This document shows positions 23,972 through 31,119 of a stretch of 35,597 nucleotides of DNA, in pieces. Position numbers and translations under genes: made by a program. The notes beneath the pieces are model-generated. The model searched no databases. It was not told the origin of the DNA and saw only the letters and a list, made by a program, of their open reading frames with translations. The stretch's first letter is position 1. Every line of letters begins with the position of its first letter. The DNA comes from Bacteroidales bacterium (GTDB lineage Bacteria; Bacteroidota; Bacteroidia; Bacteroidales; GCA-2748055). The stretch spans positions 1 to 35,597 of the forward strand of contig JAGLPR010000082.1 in the NCBI GenBank assembly GCA_023137255.1, written 5' to 3'.

Positions 23972-23998
23972 TTTACATTAACTTAACATTAAATTAAT
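23972..23998 (+). promoter_or_regulatory. Candidate Pho box upstream of the PiT transporter
   Basis: Two 11-bp direct repeats, ACATTAACTTA (23975-23985) and ACATTAAATTA (23986-23996), differ at one position. An 11-bp period is what PhoB-type regulators bind. The segment TAACTTAACATTAAATTAAT (23979-23998) reappears with two changes at 27184-27203, and CTTAACATTAAATT reappears exactly on the minus strand at 27129-27142. It ends 21 bp before the -7 element, about where a -33 would be, and no -33 TTG is present, which fits activation. Confidence 0.6.
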
Positions 23999-24019
23999 AT
24001 AGTGCGTCTCATTAAACCC

Positions 24020-24027
24020 TATTTTTG
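24020..24027 (+). promoter_or_regulatory. -7 promoter element for the PiT transporter
   Basis: TATTTTTG, an exact match to TAnnTTTG, 25 bp before the ATG and just downstream of the candidate Pho box. Confidence 0.6.
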
Positions 24028-24052
24028 AACCTTAACCTAACAATTACTTTAC

Positions 24053-26317
24053 ATGGAGGCGTATTACATTCTTATCGTAGGTGTTCTCTTTCTTCTGGCC
24101 ATCTCTGACCTGATCGTAGGGGTAAGCAATGATGCTGTGAATTTCCTTAATTCGGCCATTGGATCCAAAGCCGCACCATTTAAAATCATCCTGGCCATTG
24201 CGGCCGCTGGTGTCCTTGTGGGGGCTGTTTTTTCCAACGGGATGATGGAGGTGGCCCGAAAAGGGATCTTCAATCCGGAATTTTTCGCCTTCAATGAGAT
24301 CATGGTTATTTTCCTGGCAGTGATGCTCACCGATATCCTGCTTCTCGATTTCTTCAACACCATTGGTCTGCCCACTTCGACCACTGTCTCCATCGTGTTT
24401 GAGATCCTCGGGTCGGCAGTGGCTGTTTCGATCTACAAATTCACAAGAAGCACAGAAGTTGTCCATGAGATGAGCGACTACATCAATGTGGAGAGTTCAG
24501 TGATGATTATCGTTGGAATATTCCTCTCCGTGATCATCGCCTTTTCGGTAGGAATGATTATTCAATGGATTGTCAGGCTCGCCTTCTCGTTTAATGTGAA
24601 AAAAACATACAAATACTGGACCGGTGTCTGGGGTGGTTTCGCCATCACCGCCATCCTCTATTTCCTGTTAATCAAAGGAGCCAAGGGATCGACCCTGGTG
24701 TCGGCCGAAATGCTCACATTCATTAAAGCAAATACCACTAGAATGTTGTTGTTCAGTCTTGTGGGCTGGACTGCACTGTTCCAGGTGCTGATCCTGTTTA
24801 CACGGGTCAATATATTGAAAATCACCGTACTGGTGGGAACCTTTGCGCTGGCCATGGCCTTTGCAGGAAACGACCTGGTAAACTTCATCGGGGTACCCCT
24901 GGCAGGTTTTGAATCGTTCAAAGCATTCATGGCCTCAGGGAGTGCCGAGCCGGGAAGTTTCCTGATGAACGCATTGCGTGAGCCGGTAATTACCCCCATC
25001 TATTTCCTGATAGCTGCCGGTTTGATAATGGTAATGACGCTGCGCTTCTCCAAAAAAGCGAAGTCGGTGACCGCAACTACCCTCGATTTGAGCAGACAGG
25101 GTGAAGGCTCGGAACGCTTCGCCTCCTCCTCACTGGCAAGGTTCATTGTCAGAAGATCAGTTGAGATGAGTAATGGGATAGGAAAGATCAGTCCCGCTGT
25201 CGCCACCAGGTTTGTTCAGGCCCGTTTCGATGCAGAAAGTCACCGCGATGAGAAGCAGGAGGGCCTTGCTTTTGACCTGGTCCGCGCTTCGGTGAACCTT
25301 GTTGTAGCGAGTATATTGATCGCCATAGGTACTTCATTAAAACTTCCTCTTTCCACCACCTATGTTACATTTATGGTGGCCATGGGAACCTCTCTGGCCG
25401 ATGGTGCCTGGGGAAGGGAGAGTGCCGTGTACCGCATTACCGGAGTGCTGACAGTCATAGGGGGCTGGTTCTTTACAGCTTTCAGTGCTTTCCTGGCTTC
25501 CTTCCTGATCGCTTCGCTGATCTTCTTCGGAAAACTGCCGGTGATCCTGATCCTGATAGTACTTTCCATCTTCATACTTCTTAGAACGCACGCTTTCCAC
25601 AAAAGAAGAGCAGAGAAGCAGGTGCTGATCGACAGCAAGATCATTACCGCTTCCTATGAAGTGCTGAAATCGTGTGATGATGAAGTGAGGAGTTCCATTA
25701 TTAAAGTATCCAAAATTCTCTACCTGACCTATACCAACCTGTTCAAGGAGAAACATAAGGAACTCAAAAACCTGAAGAAGGAAACAAAACATTTAACCAA
25801 GGACATCAAAGTGATCGTGGAGAATATTCCTGATACACTGAATAAATTCAAAGAGACCGAGCTCGCCAGCGGCCACCACTATGTCCAGGTAGTGGCTTAT
25901 ATGAAGGAGATGAGCTATTCACTGATGCATATTGTGCAACCTGCCTTCAACCACCTGGATAACAACCATCCGCTGGACAAAGAGCAGGTCGATACATTGA
26001 AAAACTTTAATGAAAAAGCCAGTGAATTCTTCAATTTTGTGATAAACATATTGAAGAACAGGAATTACGAAAGCATTGATGAACTGGTGCTGCGCCGGGA
26101 TGAGATGATTAACCTGGCCAATGATATTCTGCTCCACCGAATCAAGATTCTTAAGAAGACCCAAAAAGGGGTCAAATTGAGTATCACCTACATGGAGATG
26201 CTGTCGGAGACCAAGAGCCTGTTCCTGAATGTGGTACAGCTGGTAAAAGCAGATTCGCAGCTTCAGGATTCGCTGGGCAAAGGGGAAGCAGATATTGATA
26301 TGGAGGTACTTGATTAA
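24053..26317 (+). CDS. PiT-family inorganic phosphate transporter with PhoU-like C-terminal tail
   Basis: A low-affinity phosphate permease driven by a cation gradient. The 754-residue product has about ten hydrophobic segments in two PiT repeats. The signature appears as GVSNDAVNFLNSAIGSKA (23-40) and again as GNDLVNFIGVPL (near 280), with LPTSTTVSIVFEILG and its C-terminal counterpart LPLSTTYVTFMVAMGTSLADGAWG. From about 530 the protein becomes soluble and helical, with charged coiled segments to the end, resembling a PhoU/DUF47 domain. This fusion is known in Bacteroidota and may let the regulator act in cis. The promoter carries a candidate Pho box. It converges on the response regulator gene with 15 bp between. 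Confidence 0.92.
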   Translation: MEAYYILIVGVLFLLAISDLIVGVSNDAVNFLNSAIGSKAAPFKIILAIAAAGVLVGAVFSNGMMEVARKGIFNPEFFAFNEIMVIFLAVMLTDILLLDFFNTIGLPTSTTVSIVFEILGSAVAVSIYKFTRSTEVVHEMSDYINVESSVMIIVGIFLSVIIAFSVGMIIQWIVRLAFSFNVKKTYKYWTGVWGGFAITAILYFLLIKGAKGSTLVSAEMLTFIKANTTRMLLFSLVGWTALFQVLILFTRVNILKITVLVGTFALAMAFAGNDLVNFIGVPLAGFESFKAFMASGSAEPGSFLMNALREPVITPIYFLIAAGLIMVMTLRFSKKAKSVTATTLDLSRQGEGSERFASSSLARFIVRRSVEMSNGIGKISPAVATRFVQARFDAESHRDEKQEGLAFDLVRASVNLVVASILIAIGTSLKLPLSTTYVTFMVAMGTSLADGAWGRESAVYRITGVLTVIGGWFFTAFSAFLASFLIASLIFFGKLPVILILIVLSIFILLRTHAFHKRRAEKQVLIDSKIITASYEVLKSCDDEVRSSIIKVSKILYLTYTNLFKEKHKELKNLKKETKHLTKDIKVIVENIPDTLNKFKETELASGHHYVQVVAYMKEMSYSLMHIVQPAFNHLDNNHPLDKEQVDTLKNFNEKASEFFNFVINILKNRNYESIDELVLRRDEMINLANDILLHRIKILKKTQKGVKLSITYMEMLSETKSLFLNVVQLVKADSQLQDSLGKGEADIDMEVLD

Positions 26318-26332
26318 ACGGGGAAGCGGGGA

Positions 26333-27034
26333 TCAGTACATCACATATTTGTAACCAATCCCCTTTACTGTCTGGATATATTTATCACCCAGTTTCTCCC
26401 TTAGTTTGCGGATATGTACATCTATGGTGCGGTCGCCTACCACTATGTTCTCATCCCAAACCCGGTCGAATATCTCCTCCCTGGTAAATACTTTCTCTGG
26501 TTTGGAGATCAGCAGGGAGAGCAGTTCAAACTCTTTTCTTGGAAGGGTGATGTCTTTTCCCTTTTTCACCACCAGGTACCGCTCTTTATCGACCACCAAT
26601 TCTCCCGATACGATCTTATTTACAGAACCTGAATTGGCATCTTCAATCGTCACACTCCGGCGTTTCAGCAAGGCTTTCACCCTGCTTACCAGCACCTTGG
26701 GCTTGATGGGCTTGGTGATATAATCATCTCCTCCTGCCTCGAAACCTGCGATCTGGGAGTAGTCCTCTCCCCTGGCGGTTAAAAATGCCACCAGTGTGTT
26801 CTCCAGGTTTTCGGTGGACCTGATCTCCTCGCAGGCAGCAATGCCATCCATCTCCGGCATCATCACATCCATCAGGACCAGATGAGGCTTAATCTCTTTA
26901 GATAACCGGACGGCCTCTTTTCCATTGGAGGCTGTGTAAATATGAAAGCCTTCATTCCTGAGGTTGTAACTCAGAAATTCGAGGATGTCCTTTTCATCAT
27001 CCACAAGCAATATCTTGTAGTCACTCCAGTTCAT
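26333..27034 (-). CDS. OmpR/PhoB-family response regulator
   Basis: A DNA-binding response regulator. In the 233-residue product the receiver domain has D12, D13, the phospho-acceptor D56 in VLMDVMMPEMDG, T86 and K108 (ITKPIKP). A winged-helix output domain spans about 135-233 with ISKPEKVFTREEIFDRVW, DRTIDVHIRKLREKLGD and VKGIGYKYV. It lies between a PiT transporter and an OprP-like porin, and a Pho-box-like element is just upstream, so PhoB is the likely role. No histidine kinase is encoded in the window; a PhoR partner must be elsewhere, or input comes by another route. Autoregulation is plausible. Confidence 0.9.
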   Translation of the reverse strand: MNWSDYKILLVDDEKDILEFLSYNLRNEGFHIYTASNGKEAVRLSKEIKPHLVLMDVMMPEMDGIAACEEIRSTENLENTLVAFLTARGEDYSQIAGFEAGGDDYITKPIKPKVLVSRVKALLKRRSVTIEDANSGSVNKIVSGELVVDKERYLVVKKGKDITLPRKEFELLSLLISKPEKVFTREEIFDRVWDENIVVGDRTIDVHIRKLREKLGDKYIQTVKGIGYKYVMY

Positions 27035-27128
27035 TGGTTCTCTGAAAATTGATTGTACATCTTTCGACGAATTTACACCAAAAAATTAGGTTCTGAAAAC
27101 CTTGCCCCATGCCCTCAGAGGCAGTGTA

Positions 27129-27151
27129 AATTTAATGTTAAGATAATGTTA
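27129..27151 (-). promoter_or_regulatory. Candidate Pho box upstream of the response regulator
   Basis: On the minus strand TAACATTA occurs twice at an 11-bp period (plus-strand copies TAATGTTA at 27133-27140 and 27144-27151). CATTATCTTAACATTAAATT here matches the PiT box at 19 of 20 positions and in the same orientation relative to its gene. It lies about 95 bp before the regulator start codon, in the gap shared with the divergent porin. Confidence 0.6.
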
Positions 27152-27183
27152 GCTGAATAAAAAATTTAACGGCCGGTTAGTGG

Positions 27184-27203
27184 TAACTTTATATTAAATT
27201 AAT
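27184..27203 (+). promoter_or_regulatory. Candidate Pho box upstream of the porin
   Basis: TAACTTTATATTAAATTAAT matches the PiT box segment at 18 of 20 positions. A TATCATTG at 27214-27221, seven of eight to the -7 consensus, follows 10 bp later and lies 20 bp before the porin ATG. The upstream half-repeat is weaker than at the other two boxes. Confidence 0.5.
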
Positions 27204-27241
27204 CCGATTTCTTATCATTGTGGTGTTTTAATTATCTTCCT

Positions 27242-28237
27242 ATGAAACAGCTTAGTATCCTTGTGGTCATCCTTTCGGTGATGCCCATAGTCAGAAGTCA
27301 GGACACCATTCCGGATCCACCAAAACCGGGAACGGTTTCAGCCAGGATCTTCACCCACTTTAACTACAGCCTCGACCGGGACAATCCGGCCACTGCATTT
27401 GAGGTGAGACGTGCCTATTTTGGCTATACACGTGAGCTTGACAGCCATTTCTCCGCCGAGGTGCAGCTGGACATTGGCAGCGTGGACGATCAGTCAGAAT
27501 TCAGCCTGATCAGGCGTTATACCTACTTTAAGAATGCCTACCTGAGTTACAAAACCGGGAACATCAAAACCTGGTTCGGTCTGATGGACATGCTTCAGTT
27601 TAATTTGCAGGAGAAGTTCTGGGGATACCGTTACCTCTACAGGTCCTACCTGGATGAGTACCGGTTCGGATCCAGTGCCGACCTGGGGGCCGGAATCCAG
27701 TACTCCCCTACCAAACATTTCACAGCCGACCTGGTCCTGAGTAACGGGGAAGGATATAAAAATCTTCAGTTTGACAATGCATACAGGATTGGAGCTGGAG
27801 TGACCCTTCAGCCCACACCGCGACTGACCCTGAGAACCTACTATACCATTCATACCAGTGAAGTGCACCAGATGATCTTCTCGGGCTTCGTAGGGTACAG
27901 AATGAACAGGCTGAGGATCGGAGGAGAATACAACCACCAGCTGAATTACAAATTCAACGATGGACACGACAGGTACGGCTACTCCATATACTCCACCTAT
28001 ATGTTCTCTGACAAATGGGAGGTGTTTGCCAGGTACGACCAGCTTTACTCCAATATCCTTCCGGAAGATGATGTTCCCTGGAACCTGGCCAGGGACGGAA
28101 GTGCCATCATCAGCGGAGTTCAGTTTACCCCCATCGAATATATCCATATGTCGCTGAATTACCAGGACTGGGTGGAGTTTGCCGAGAATGGAGGCTCTGC
28201 ACCCTATCTCTACCTGAACATTGAAATCCTATTTTAA
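27242..28237 (+). CDS. OprO/OprP-like phosphate-type porin
   Basis: An outer-membrane porin likely used for phosphate or polyphosphate uptake. The 331-residue product starts MKQLSILVVILSV with a signal peptide ending near VRSQ; an upstream TTG start would only add a non-signal extension. Porin_O_P features are FEVRRAYFGYTRELDSHFSAEVQLDIG near 50-76, then KNAYLSYKTGNIKTWFGLMDM, alternating strands throughout, and an aromatic end LYLNIEILF. It is shorter than Pseudomonas OprP (about 440). The Pho-box-like element upstream and the PhoB-like gene next to it support the assignment. A beta-helix lipoprotein follows 14 bp downstream, so the two are probably co-transcribed. Confidence 0.85.
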   Translation: MKQLSILVVILSVMPIVRSQDTIPDPPKPGTVSARIFTHFNYSLDRDNPATAFEVRRAYFGYTRELDSHFSAEVQLDIGSVDDQSEFSLIRRYTYFKNAYLSYKTGNIKTWFGLMDMLQFNLQEKFWGYRYLYRSYLDEYRFGSSADLGAGIQYSPTKHFTADLVLSNGEGYKNLQFDNAYRIGAGVTLQPTPRLTLRTYYTIHTSEVHQMIFSGFVGYRMNRLRIGGEYNHQLNYKFNDGHDRYGYSIYSTYMFSDKWEVFARYDQLYSNILPEDDVPWNLARDGSAIISGVQFTPIEYIHMSLNYQDWVEFAENGGSAPYLYLNIEILF

Positions 28238-28251
28238 TCCCGCGGCCACCT

Positions 28252-29580
28252 ATGAGACAAAGTTTAACATTTCTTACAGTTCTAACACTTCTAAGCACTT
28301 TTTCGGCGTGCCGTAAAAGTGCTTACATCATCGAAGAGGTAGAATCCATCACCGACATGGGCGGTGGAACCGGGACCGTTACCTGGAGCAATGATAAAGA
28401 TTACCTGATCAACGGTTTTGTCTTTGTCAATGACGGGCAGACCCTTACCATAGAGGCCGGAACAGTAATACGGGGCCGCACCGGGCAGGGAAGCCTTGCC
28501 AGCGGACTGATCGTAGCCAGGGGAGGCACCATCATTGCAGAAGGCACCCAGATCAATCCCATTATATTTACTGTGGAGGGAGACGACCTTCAAGGGAGTG
28601 TGCCCATTGAGGCCCGGGGACTCTGGGGTGGTCTGATTATCCTGGGAAATGCCACCATCAATACCGAATCGGGGGAGGATATGATCGAAGGGATTCCCAT
28701 CAGTGAACCCCGGGGGATCTACGGCGGTTACGACGATGATGACAACTCAGGGATTCTTCGTTATGTCTCAATCAGGCACGGCGGAACCAATATCGGGGAA
28801 GGAAACGAGATCAACGGGCTAACCCTGGGAGCTGTGGGGCGACAGACCATCATCGATCATGTGGAGGTAATTGCCAATGCAGATGACGGGGTGGAATTTT
28901 TCGGGGGTACTGTGAACTGTAAAAATCTGGTAGTTGCCTTTTGCGGTGACGACGCCTTTGATCTGGATCAGGGATACCGCGGGAAGGGCCAGTTCTGGCT
29001 GGGCATCCATAATAATGATAAATGTTTAGAGATAACAGGCGGTTTACAACCAGTACAGTTACTTACTGAATGTCAGACAATTATCTATAATGCCACCCTG
29101 ATCCACAGCCATCTTTCATCCATAGCCGTACCGGTTCATTTTCTCCAGTATGGCGGGGGGTACCTGAGGAACTCCATCATTCTCAATCCCATGGATGGGG
29201 TTGCTCTTCGATATTCGGATAAACCGGGTGATACCTGGTCACTGTTTCAATCCGGTCGATTGGCACTGGAAAACAACATCCTCTATCCGGGGTCCGGTCC
29301 CACCACTGCATATCATACCTATTCGGAGCTTGGAGAGGATCTAACTGAAGAAAACCAACAGCTCGCAGATTCAACCCTGGCATGGCAAACCAGCTTTGAA
29401 GATCCCGGGATCTCGGACCTGGACGGATTTACCCTGCTACCCCCAACCACCGAGTTTGAGAACATGGCTCCCTATGAGTGTGATTGGTTGGAGGAGGTTA
29501 CCTACAAGGGTAGTTTCGGATCCAATCTCTGGATCGCGGGGTGGACCCTTCTTTACGAATCTGGTTATATCAACGACTGA
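28252..29580 (+). CDS. Beta-helix-like surface lipoprotein in the Pho cluster
   Basis: The 442-residue product has a lipoprotein signal ending in FSAC (C20). It then has strings of short strands and turns such as LIVARGGTIIAEGTQINPI, LWGGLIILGNATI, GVEFFGGTVNCKNLVVAF and DAFDLDQGYRGKGQFWLG, typical of a right-handed parallel beta-helix. The acidic turn GGYDDDDNSGI could bind cations. Members of this family occur with phosphate-limitation genes in Bacteroidota, as I recall, but no activity is established. With the porin 14 bp upstream it is likely induced by phosphate starvation, perhaps as a surface binding or processing factor. It has no apparent type IX sorting domain. Confidence 0.8.
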   Translation: MRQSLTFLTVLTLLSTFSACRKSAYIIEEVESITDMGGGTGTVTWSNDKDYLINGFVFVNDGQTLTIEAGTVIRGRTGQGSLASGLIVARGGTIIAEGTQINPIIFTVEGDDLQGSVPIEARGLWGGLIILGNATINTESGEDMIEGIPISEPRGIYGGYDDDDNSGILRYVSIRHGGTNIGEGNEINGLTLGAVGRQTIIDHVEVIANADDGVEFFGGTVNCKNLVVAFCGDDAFDLDQGYRGKGQFWLGIHNNDKCLEITGGLQPVQLLTECQTIIYNATLIHSHLSSIAVPVHFLQYGGGYLRNSIILNPMDGVALRYSDKPGDTWSLFQSGRLALENNILYPGSGPTTAYHTYSELGEDLTEENQQLADSTLAWQTSFEDPGISDLDGFTLLPPTTEFENMAPYECDWLEEVTYKGSFGSNLWIAGWTLLYESGYIND

Positions 29581-29601: not shown

Positions 29602-31119
29602 TTACGTCCTGTGTTCCTTTCGGTTCAGATCAAATACGGTTTTTACAGGTGAGAAAGTGTCGATGGGAACCTCCACAAAAAGAGTCAGCCAGCGGGCCAT
29701 GGCCCCGTTCCAGAGTCCAGGTAATTCAAGGGCTTTGAGTGACTTCCCGGCCACCGATTTTTCTGAAATAAATCCGGAATTCTGGTCCACATAGCGGATC
29801 AGGTTGAATTTTTTTCCCTGGTAATCACGAATGCTGCACACCAGGTCGACCGGATTAAAGTGGGTCGACTCATTTAGCTGCAATGCCTTCTCCGGATCCT
29901 CCATATCGATCTGAGAAGACTCTACGATCTGCAGCGACATTTCTCCCGATTCGGAACGCACGTAGAAGGGTCCGCCGCCCGGTTCACCCTCGTTCCGGAC
30001 CATCCCACAAACCCTGATCGGCCGGTTCATGGTGCTTATCAACCACTTTCTGAGTTCTGAAGCATCCCACTGCTCAAGTATGTCGGGTATAGCAATACCC
30101 AGTCGATCATGCAGGTAGTTCACCATGTGATCCATGCGGGTCTTCTCCACCTTCTCGTCCCCTGTCAGTTGCTGCAGGTAATAAAACACTTTGGAGCGGA
30201 TCTCAAGCAATACCCCACCCAGCACCTGCTTGTGTTTTACCCTTACATTCTTTCGGGAATCAGGCGCCACGTTATCTATGTTGCTGATAAAGACCAGGTC
30301 GGAGTCGAGAGCATCCAGGTTCCGTATCAGGGCTCCATGTCCGGCGGGTCTGAAAAGCAGGGAACCATCGTTGTTGCGGAATGGTTCGTTGTCCAGATCC
30401 ACAGCAATGGTATCGGTTTCCGGCTTCTGAAATGAGAAAGAGAGATCGAAAATGAATCCTGTCTCCTTTTCAATCAGCGGCAGGATCCTGGCTGCCTCTG
30501 TCTGGAATCCATCCAGGTGATCGGGCGAAACCGTCAGGTGAATTCTTACCATCCCTTCCCGGTTTCCACAATACTTAACTGCTTCGCGCACATGCTCCTC
30601 AAATGCGGTTCTGCGGTCCTTTTCACTGTATTTATGAAATTTCAGAAGTCCTTTGGGTTTATTCCCGTAATTCAGTCCCTCTTCTCCAAGCACCTGCCGG
30701 AGAATCTCAGCAGGCGTTGTCTTCTCCTGCAGACTAAGATCTTCGTAAAAAGGATATTTCTCCAGCTTCCTGAAAAAACGATTTAACTCCTTGTTCCCTT
30801 CAATCCACTCCTCCTGCTTTGCCAGTGATTTCCCTTCCAGCTCTTCCTGTGCACCAAACAGCGTTTTAAACATACGTGTTGCCGCACCTGATGCAGGAAT
30901 AAAACGGATGATCCTGAAGTCGGGAGCATTATCGAGAAAAACATCCAGGAAATGTTTCTCGTCCCCCTCTGAAATTACAAGAATACCCTTTCCGGGAGTG
31001 GCCGGCATGGTGATATCTGAAGGAGGAAATCCCTGCTTGAAATGTTTGATCTGTCGGTTGATCTCATCTATATGGATCCCTTTGGAACGGATCTGCTGAA
31101 GGTCTTTCTGGCTGAACAT
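29602..31119 (-). CDS. DUF4301 protein
   Basis: The 505-residue product fits DUF4301, an uncharacterised family nearly confined to Bacteroidota. Near the N-terminus RFIPASGAATRMFKTL (72-87) resembles the glycine-rich nucleotide-binding loop plus arginine of sugar nucleotidyltransferases, and DLDNEPFRNNDGSLLFRPAGHGALI lies mid-protein with an acidic pair. A nucleotide-sugar or related nucleotidyltransferase role is inferred only. No signal peptide or membrane segment. Its start codon sits directly after an 8-bp hairpin (31123-31146). It is downstream of iorBA on the same strand with a 42-bp gap, and converges on the beta-helix lipoprotein. Confidence 0.85.
   Translation of the reverse strand: MFSQKDLQQIRSKGIHIDEINRQIKHFKQGFPPSDITMPATPGKGILVISEGDEKHFLDVFLDNAPDFRIIRFIPASGAATRMFKTLFGAQEELEGKSLAKQEEWIEGNKELNRFFRKLEKYPFYEDLSLQEKTTPAEILRQVLGEEGLNYGNKPKGLLKFHKYSEKDRRTAFEEHVREAVKYCGNREGMVRIHLTVSPDHLDGFQTEAARILPLIEKETGFIFDLSFSFQKPETDTIAVDLDNEPFRNNDGSLLFRPAGHGALIRNLDALDSDLVFISNIDNVAPDSRKNVRVKHKQVLGGVLLEIRSKVFYYLQQLTGDEKVEKTRMDHMVNYLHDRLGIAIPDILEQWDASELRKWLISTMNRPIRVCGMVRNEGEPGGGPFYVRSESGEMSLQIVESSQIDMEDPEKALQLNESTHFNPVDLVCSIRDYQGKKFNLIRYVDQNSGFISEKSVAGKSLKALELPGLWNGAMARWLTLFVEVPIDTFSPVKTVFDLNRKEHRT

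Follow-up and report, generated by a model that had tools for sequence, protein, structure and literature searches.

A PHO-box-like operator conserved upstream of PiT phosphate transporter genes in Bacteroidota, most likely read by an adjacent PhoB-like regulator

The pit locus and its promoter element

The window, a stretch of 35,597 nucleotides, derives from a Bacteroidales bacterium draft genome of 3.34 Mb that is 80.7% complete. It contains pit (24053-26317, plus strand), encoding a PHO4-family phosphate transporter of 754 amino acids (Pfam PF01384, 90.3 bits), and, convergent with it, the gene for a PhoB-like response regulator of the OmpR/PhoB family (26333-27034, minus strand; PF00072 and PF00486). 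Divergent from the regulator gene are the gene for an outer-membrane porin of Porin_O_P, the phosphate-selective porin family (27242-28237, plus strand; PF07396), and then that for a putative lipoprotein of 442 amino acids (28252-29580, plus strand), which is kept beside the porin in relatives. The porin scores 24.2 bits, marginally over the Pfam cut-off of 20.9, and its selectivity is predicted from the family; the lipoprotein matched no Pfam or NCBIfam family. Further along lies a DUF4301 gene (29602-31119; PF14134, 657 bits), which several relatives retain next to the pit-regulator-porin-lipoprotein block. There is no histidine kinase gene next to the regulator or anywhere in the window. 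Reading the C-terminal domain of the long PiT protein as a fused PhoU_div domain was unsupported by profile comparison (hhalign probability of 10%).

A PHO-box-like operator precedes pit (23972-24000, plus strand), consisting of TTTACATTAAC (23972-23982), TTAACATTAAA (23983-23993), and TTAATAT (23994-24000). A second copy, CTAACATTATC-TTAACATTAAA-TTTACAC, lies upstream of the regulator gene (27124-27152, minus strand), and a weaker one, TTAGTGGTAAC-TTTATATTAAA-TTAATCC, upstream of the porin gene (27177-27205, plus strand). A sequence-only reading of this DNA had pointed out 11-bp direct repeats with an identical core, CTTAACATTAAATT, at 23982-23995 (plus strand) and 27129-27142 (minus strand). 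These coordinates are exact, and both the longer match of 19 of 20 positions between the PiT and regulator copies and the match of 18 of 20 between the porin variant and the PiT copy can be read off the sequence. The repeats are real, but their full length had been understated, as the PiT and regulator copies each comprise three 11-bp direct repeats of TTAACAT and are longer than the 14-bp core. PHO boxes are recognized by direct repeats that follow one another in tandem every 11 nt, and three such units are present here.

The pit box is followed after 19 nt by the Bacteroidota -7 element TATTTTTG (24020-24027, plus strand). As had been proposed, the promoter has no TTTG at -33, only the -7, and the element sits at the -35/-33 place, the position that a PHO box takes in an activator-dependent promoter. 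In the window's family, the distance from the box end to the -7 TAnnTTTG is 19 nt (once 20); of the 13 listed pit promoters with a box, 11 have a spacing of 19 to 20 nt and the remaining 2 have no TAnnTTTG. Across the phylum, values of 19 nt and, more commonly, 30 nt occur, with 24 of 30 distances at 18 to 20 or 29 to 31 nt. The two spacings differ by one 11-bp unit, and where the distance is 30 nt, the consensus shows the gap to be occupied by a fourth, degenerate unit resembling AACAT. Three regulator promoters of the genus likewise have 19 nt between the box and a -7-like TAAATTGG or TATCTTGC; before the window's own regulator gene, a -7 at this distance is not clearly seen. From the box in place of a missing -33 and its fixed spacing to the -7, we infer an activator-dependent promoter layout.

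Conservation and genomic specificity

To avoid circularity, the copies were scored with a matrix for which other families alone supplied the pit promoters; these came from 80 loci that a protein search had located. Over both strands of the whole window, this matrix gave scores of 28.1 for the pit copy, 20.4 for the regulator copy, and 14.0 for the porin copy, the best score outside the two intergenic regions being 8.7. When the intergenic regions themselves were dinucleotide shuffled and rescored, p was 2e-4 for the pit and regulator copies, which is the floor of 5000 shuffles, and 8e-4 for the porin copy. In the organism's whole draft genome, a 23-mer pattern allowing up to three mismatches matched only the pit and regulator copies; a looser 19-mer pattern added just two matches with three mismatches, no more than its control did.

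At pit, the element is found throughout the phylum. With a matrix trained on the genus, a site was present in 60 of 76 pit upstreams at p ≤ 0.05 and in 45 of 76 at p ≤ 0.01, each measured against its own shuffles, and these sites lie mostly 75 to 115 bp before the start codon. Named isolates included here belong to Marinilabilia, Labilibaculum, Marinifilum, Puteibacter, and Gaoshiqia. Unprimed Gibbs sampling of 71 PiT upstreams across the phylum returned the same motif, TTAACATTAAnTTAACAT, in four of four runs. A score of at least 10 was reached by 75% of these 71 upstreams versus 6.8% of 264 other upstreams from the same loci (Mann-Whitney p = 6e-22), the PiT and control upstreams both coming from genomes related to one another; among the top-scoring controls are upstreams of other PiT genes, of the linked regulator gene, and of the lipoprotein gene. 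The element is therefore not equally common before unrelated genes. Judged by sequence comparison, it is a genuine control site that has been conserved before the gene of this transporter throughout the phylum Bacteroidota.

Conservation at the other two genes is narrower. Among 38 regulator upstreams, a set that includes near-duplicates, 15 score at least 10. The regulator copy, CTTAACATTA[AT]ATTTACA[CT], is kept in three genomes of the genus (G002, G006, and G009) and, without its first C, in G015; outside these four it is weaker or absent, sister genera included. One genome (G007) has the regulator with no box before it. At this locus (L041, 6522-8778), pit keeps its box, neither the porin gene nor the lipoprotein gene is present, and the regulator gene directly follows that for DUF4301. 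In sister genera (L045 and L049), a second PhoB-like regulator, with 55 to 60% identity, is encoded divergently from pit, which is thus flanked by two related regulators. The porin copy, for which five relatives and the window give the consensus TTAATGATAACTTTATGnTAAnTTAATCC, is real but the least certain, because its occurrence is patchy and just 7 of 23 porin upstreams score at least 10. Conservation at orthologues hence holds strongly for pit, in part of the genus for the regulator, and patchily for the porin. The candidate Bacteroidota Pho regulon that the sequence-only reading had drawn from the three copies is thus supported, least firmly at the porin copy.

Scanning 148 genomes of the order with the pattern, in a gene-blind manner, yielded 22 matches, versus 8 for the reversed pattern, which fell mostly in very AT-rich genomes. 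Fourteen of the 21 distinct loci adjoin PiT genes (long and short ones), PhoU_div-PHO4 operons, or a homologue of the window's porin or lipoprotein gene. The PhoU_div and PHO4 domains at these loci, in other families, were confirmed by Pfam, and a PhoU_div-PHO4 operon with a box in G021 had already come up in a less stringent scan. Homologues of the lipoprotein gene elsewhere have a box of their own (L239, score of 19.7; L204, 17.6; and L270, from the gene-blind scan). Several further matches, beside unrelated genes such as nadA and an epimerase gene, were taken as chance. Like a PHO box, the element thus occurs specifically upstream of phosphate-acquisition genes; this specificity for phosphate transport, the conservation at pit, and the spacing to the -7 are, like the element itself, legible in the genomes.

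Some Pst operons carry related repeats. The Pst operon of G038, which the less stringent scan had also brought up, has five units (score of 26.9), and those of Marinifilum and Labilibaculum (L297, L301, and L303) have a three- to four-unit repeat, TGTAACATTCC, about 150 to 170 bp before pstS, which is possibly a separate box for canonical PhoB. As the box was absent or weak with this matrix at many of the Pst operons examined, we do not claim a universal Pst box.

Genes for small, putatively secreted proteins were also seen near boxes. In at least four lineages (L117/L118, L269, L279, and L306), a MORN_2 protein of this kind (152 to 153 amino acids; PF07661) is encoded divergently from strong TTAACAT boxes at a distance of 54 to 93 bp; it is a candidate for an uncharacterised regulon member. 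Other small, putatively secreted proteins (108 to 116 amino acids) are encoded near boxes at L123, L124, and L306, two of them confirmed as CarboxypepD_reg proteins; at L124, a TonB-dependent receptor follows.

The regulator and its proposed role

With PF00072 and PF00486 both over cut-off, the regulator has the receiver and winged-helix Trans_reg_C domains that define the OmpR/PhoB family. Against the NCBIfam PhoB equivalogs, it scores 215.6 bits for NF053854, its best NCBIfam match (cut-off of 270), and 205.2 for TIGR02154 (cut-off of 296.2). Because these values lie below the cut-offs, we call the protein PhoB-like and do not file it as PhoB, so that the label originally given to it holds for family and resemblance and goes no further. 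In the same genus, the regulators linked to Pst in G004, G012, and G013 score 313 to 319 bits and exceed the NCBIfam Bacteroides PhoB cut-off. Of all solved structures, that of E. coli PhoB comes closest to the C-terminal 50 amino acids (the DNA-binding end) of the window regulator, and the two C-terminal ends have the motif DRT[IV]DVHIR[KR]LR in common.

Within the genus, the pit box was found in 7 of 7 scored genomes with the pit-linked regulator versus 2 of 7 without it (Fisher p = 0.02); association p values here are indicative only, because the tests ignore relatedness and the PiT tree shows that the box was lost at least twice, once in G012 and once in the group of G004, G008, and G013. 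In an alignment from which the row for G009 was left out, the G013 and G004 promoters have a gap at the box position. None of the genus genomes that have the linked regulator gave a detectable PstB; this protein occurs in G003, G004, G012, G013, and G017, and genus genomes with Pst and canonical PhoB have mostly lost the box. In the window's own genome, at its completeness of 80.7%, searches for phosphate genes found no Pst operon.

We read the element as a Bacteroidota PHO box, an operator at which an OmpR/PhoB-family regulator, most likely the adjacent one, would act as an activator. That this PhoB-like regulator uses the element to activate pit and its own gene has, in our estimate, a probability of about 0.7. 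In this scenario, each 11-bp TTAACAT repeat would be read by one winged-helix domain of the regulator, the reader in this organism most likely being the PhoB-like protein encoded beside pit. At low phosphate, the phosphorylated regulator would bind the repeats head to tail, its proximal subunit would occupy the place of the -33 element, and it would thereby recruit RNA polymerase to a promoter with only a -7 element. Transcription of pit and of the regulator's own gene would be turned on, and that of the porin-lipoprotein pair would follow more weakly or partly. The binding protein, activation as the sign, and phosphate as the signal are the parts that we infer.

The same operator might act with the opposite sign, such that pit would be turned down by the phosphorylated regulator when phosphate is low and other genes would be activated. 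Such repression has been reported for the low-affinity Pit systems of some proteobacteria, the box overlaps the core-promoter region in a manner that suits a repressor as well, and the loss of the box in Pst genomes could be a release from repression. Against this, the -33 is not replaced by anything at the boxed promoters, the spacings of 19 and 30 nt keep the helical phase expected for contact with polymerase rather than for a steric block, and no Pst was detected in the window organism to take over at low phosphate. We consider repression unlikely, though it is the strongest of the alternatives.

Somewhat less probable still is that another OmpR-family regulator, either canonical PhoB or an ArcA/PhoP-like protein recognizing a TTAACA repeat, reads the box in response to another signal, with the neighboring regulator as a bystander. 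G003 and G017 keep the pit box and have no linked regulator; therefore, another regulator can use the box, and the pairing is not absolute. Related boxes also occur at Pst operons beside canonical PhoB (G017, G012, and Labilibaculum). Moreover, PhoP of Riemerella anatipestifer, an OmpR-family regulator that is also from Bacteroidota, has a DAP-seq motif conserved at TTTAACA, the same core letters, and its sites resemble those of ArcA; this motif differs from ours in being reported as broad, with several hundred genes, and we found no Pst, phosphate-transporter, or porin targets in that main text (PMC9603813). However, the targets of the gene-blind scan are mostly phosphate transporters, the box goes with the linked regulator in the genus, the promoter of the linked regulator itself has a box, and the best other response regulator of the window's own genome scores just 107 bits versus 505 for the window regulator. 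Finally, chance matches in AT-rich intergenic DNA, which the 68 to 72% A+T of the region and the just moderately strong porin copy might suggest, have a negligible probability, as composition-preserving dinucleotide shuffles, reversed-pattern controls, control upstreams, and unprimed motif discovery all reject them; chance is already refuted for the pit and regulator copies, with some minor doubt left that the porin match exceeds it.

PiT is usually seen as a constitutive low-affinity transporter. Extending the activator reading, we tentatively suggest that an ancestral, phylum-wide operator puts PiT under a dedicated pit-linked PhoB-like regulator distinct from canonical PhoB. The PiT-regulator-porin-lipoprotein cluster might then be an alternative high-demand phosphate system, exchanged for Pst and canonical PhoB between species of one genus, a proposal that we hold at somewhat less than even odds.

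Relation to known Pho systems and implications

In a PHO box, 11-nt units repeat in tandem and are bound head to tail by PhoB or PhoP, and the unit sequence varies between groups (PMC4415409). As in the boxes of E. coli PhoB and of B. subtilis and Streptomyces PhoP, the 11-nt repeats described here have seven conserved and four less conserved positions and lie before phosphate genes and the regulator gene itself, replacing the -35/-33 (PMC4415409). The unit differs, being TTAACAT here but CTGTCAT in E. coli and GTTCACC in Streptomyces (PMC4415409). The main conserved target is PiT, whereas that of known PHO boxes is pst, and, unlike those boxes, the element stands 19 or 30 nt from a Bacteroidota -7, TAnnTTTG.

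Within Bacteroidota, PhoB of Bacteroides fragilis binds the pst promoter directly, on a 512-bp fragment in which the site is unmapped (PMC3547664). This is likewise a Bacteroidota PhoB at a phosphate-transport promoter, but the target is pst and not PiT. In Flavobacterium johnsoniae, the phoBR cluster includes an OprP porin gene and a lipoprotein gene that is strongly induced at low phosphate (PMC8115612). It resembles our locus in bringing together PhoB, an OprP (PF07396) porin, and a lipoprotein, in a group largely without Pst, and differs in that PhoR lies within the cluster and the OprP gene is uninduced (PMC8115612); its FII lipoprotein is compared here with the window's 442-amino-acid protein by cluster position. 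No operator description was found in searches of that paper, and we found no earlier mapped PHO box for PhoB in Bacteroidota in the literature open to search. PHO boxes in general are already known; what is new, as far as that literature goes, is an operator of PiT found throughout the phylum, together with the geometry of this operator and the way it is exchanged with Pst.

Bacteroidota abound in gut, soil, and marine habitats, and Pst is missing from many of them. A defined operator with a fixed geometry makes their Pho regulons predictable from sequence throughout the phylum, allows direct tests of how phosphate uptake is regulated in Pst-less bacteria, and offers a candidate design for phosphate-inducible promoters in Bacteroidota. 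For the organisms themselves, this switch probably lets bacteria without the usual high-affinity phosphate pump turn on phosphate uptake.
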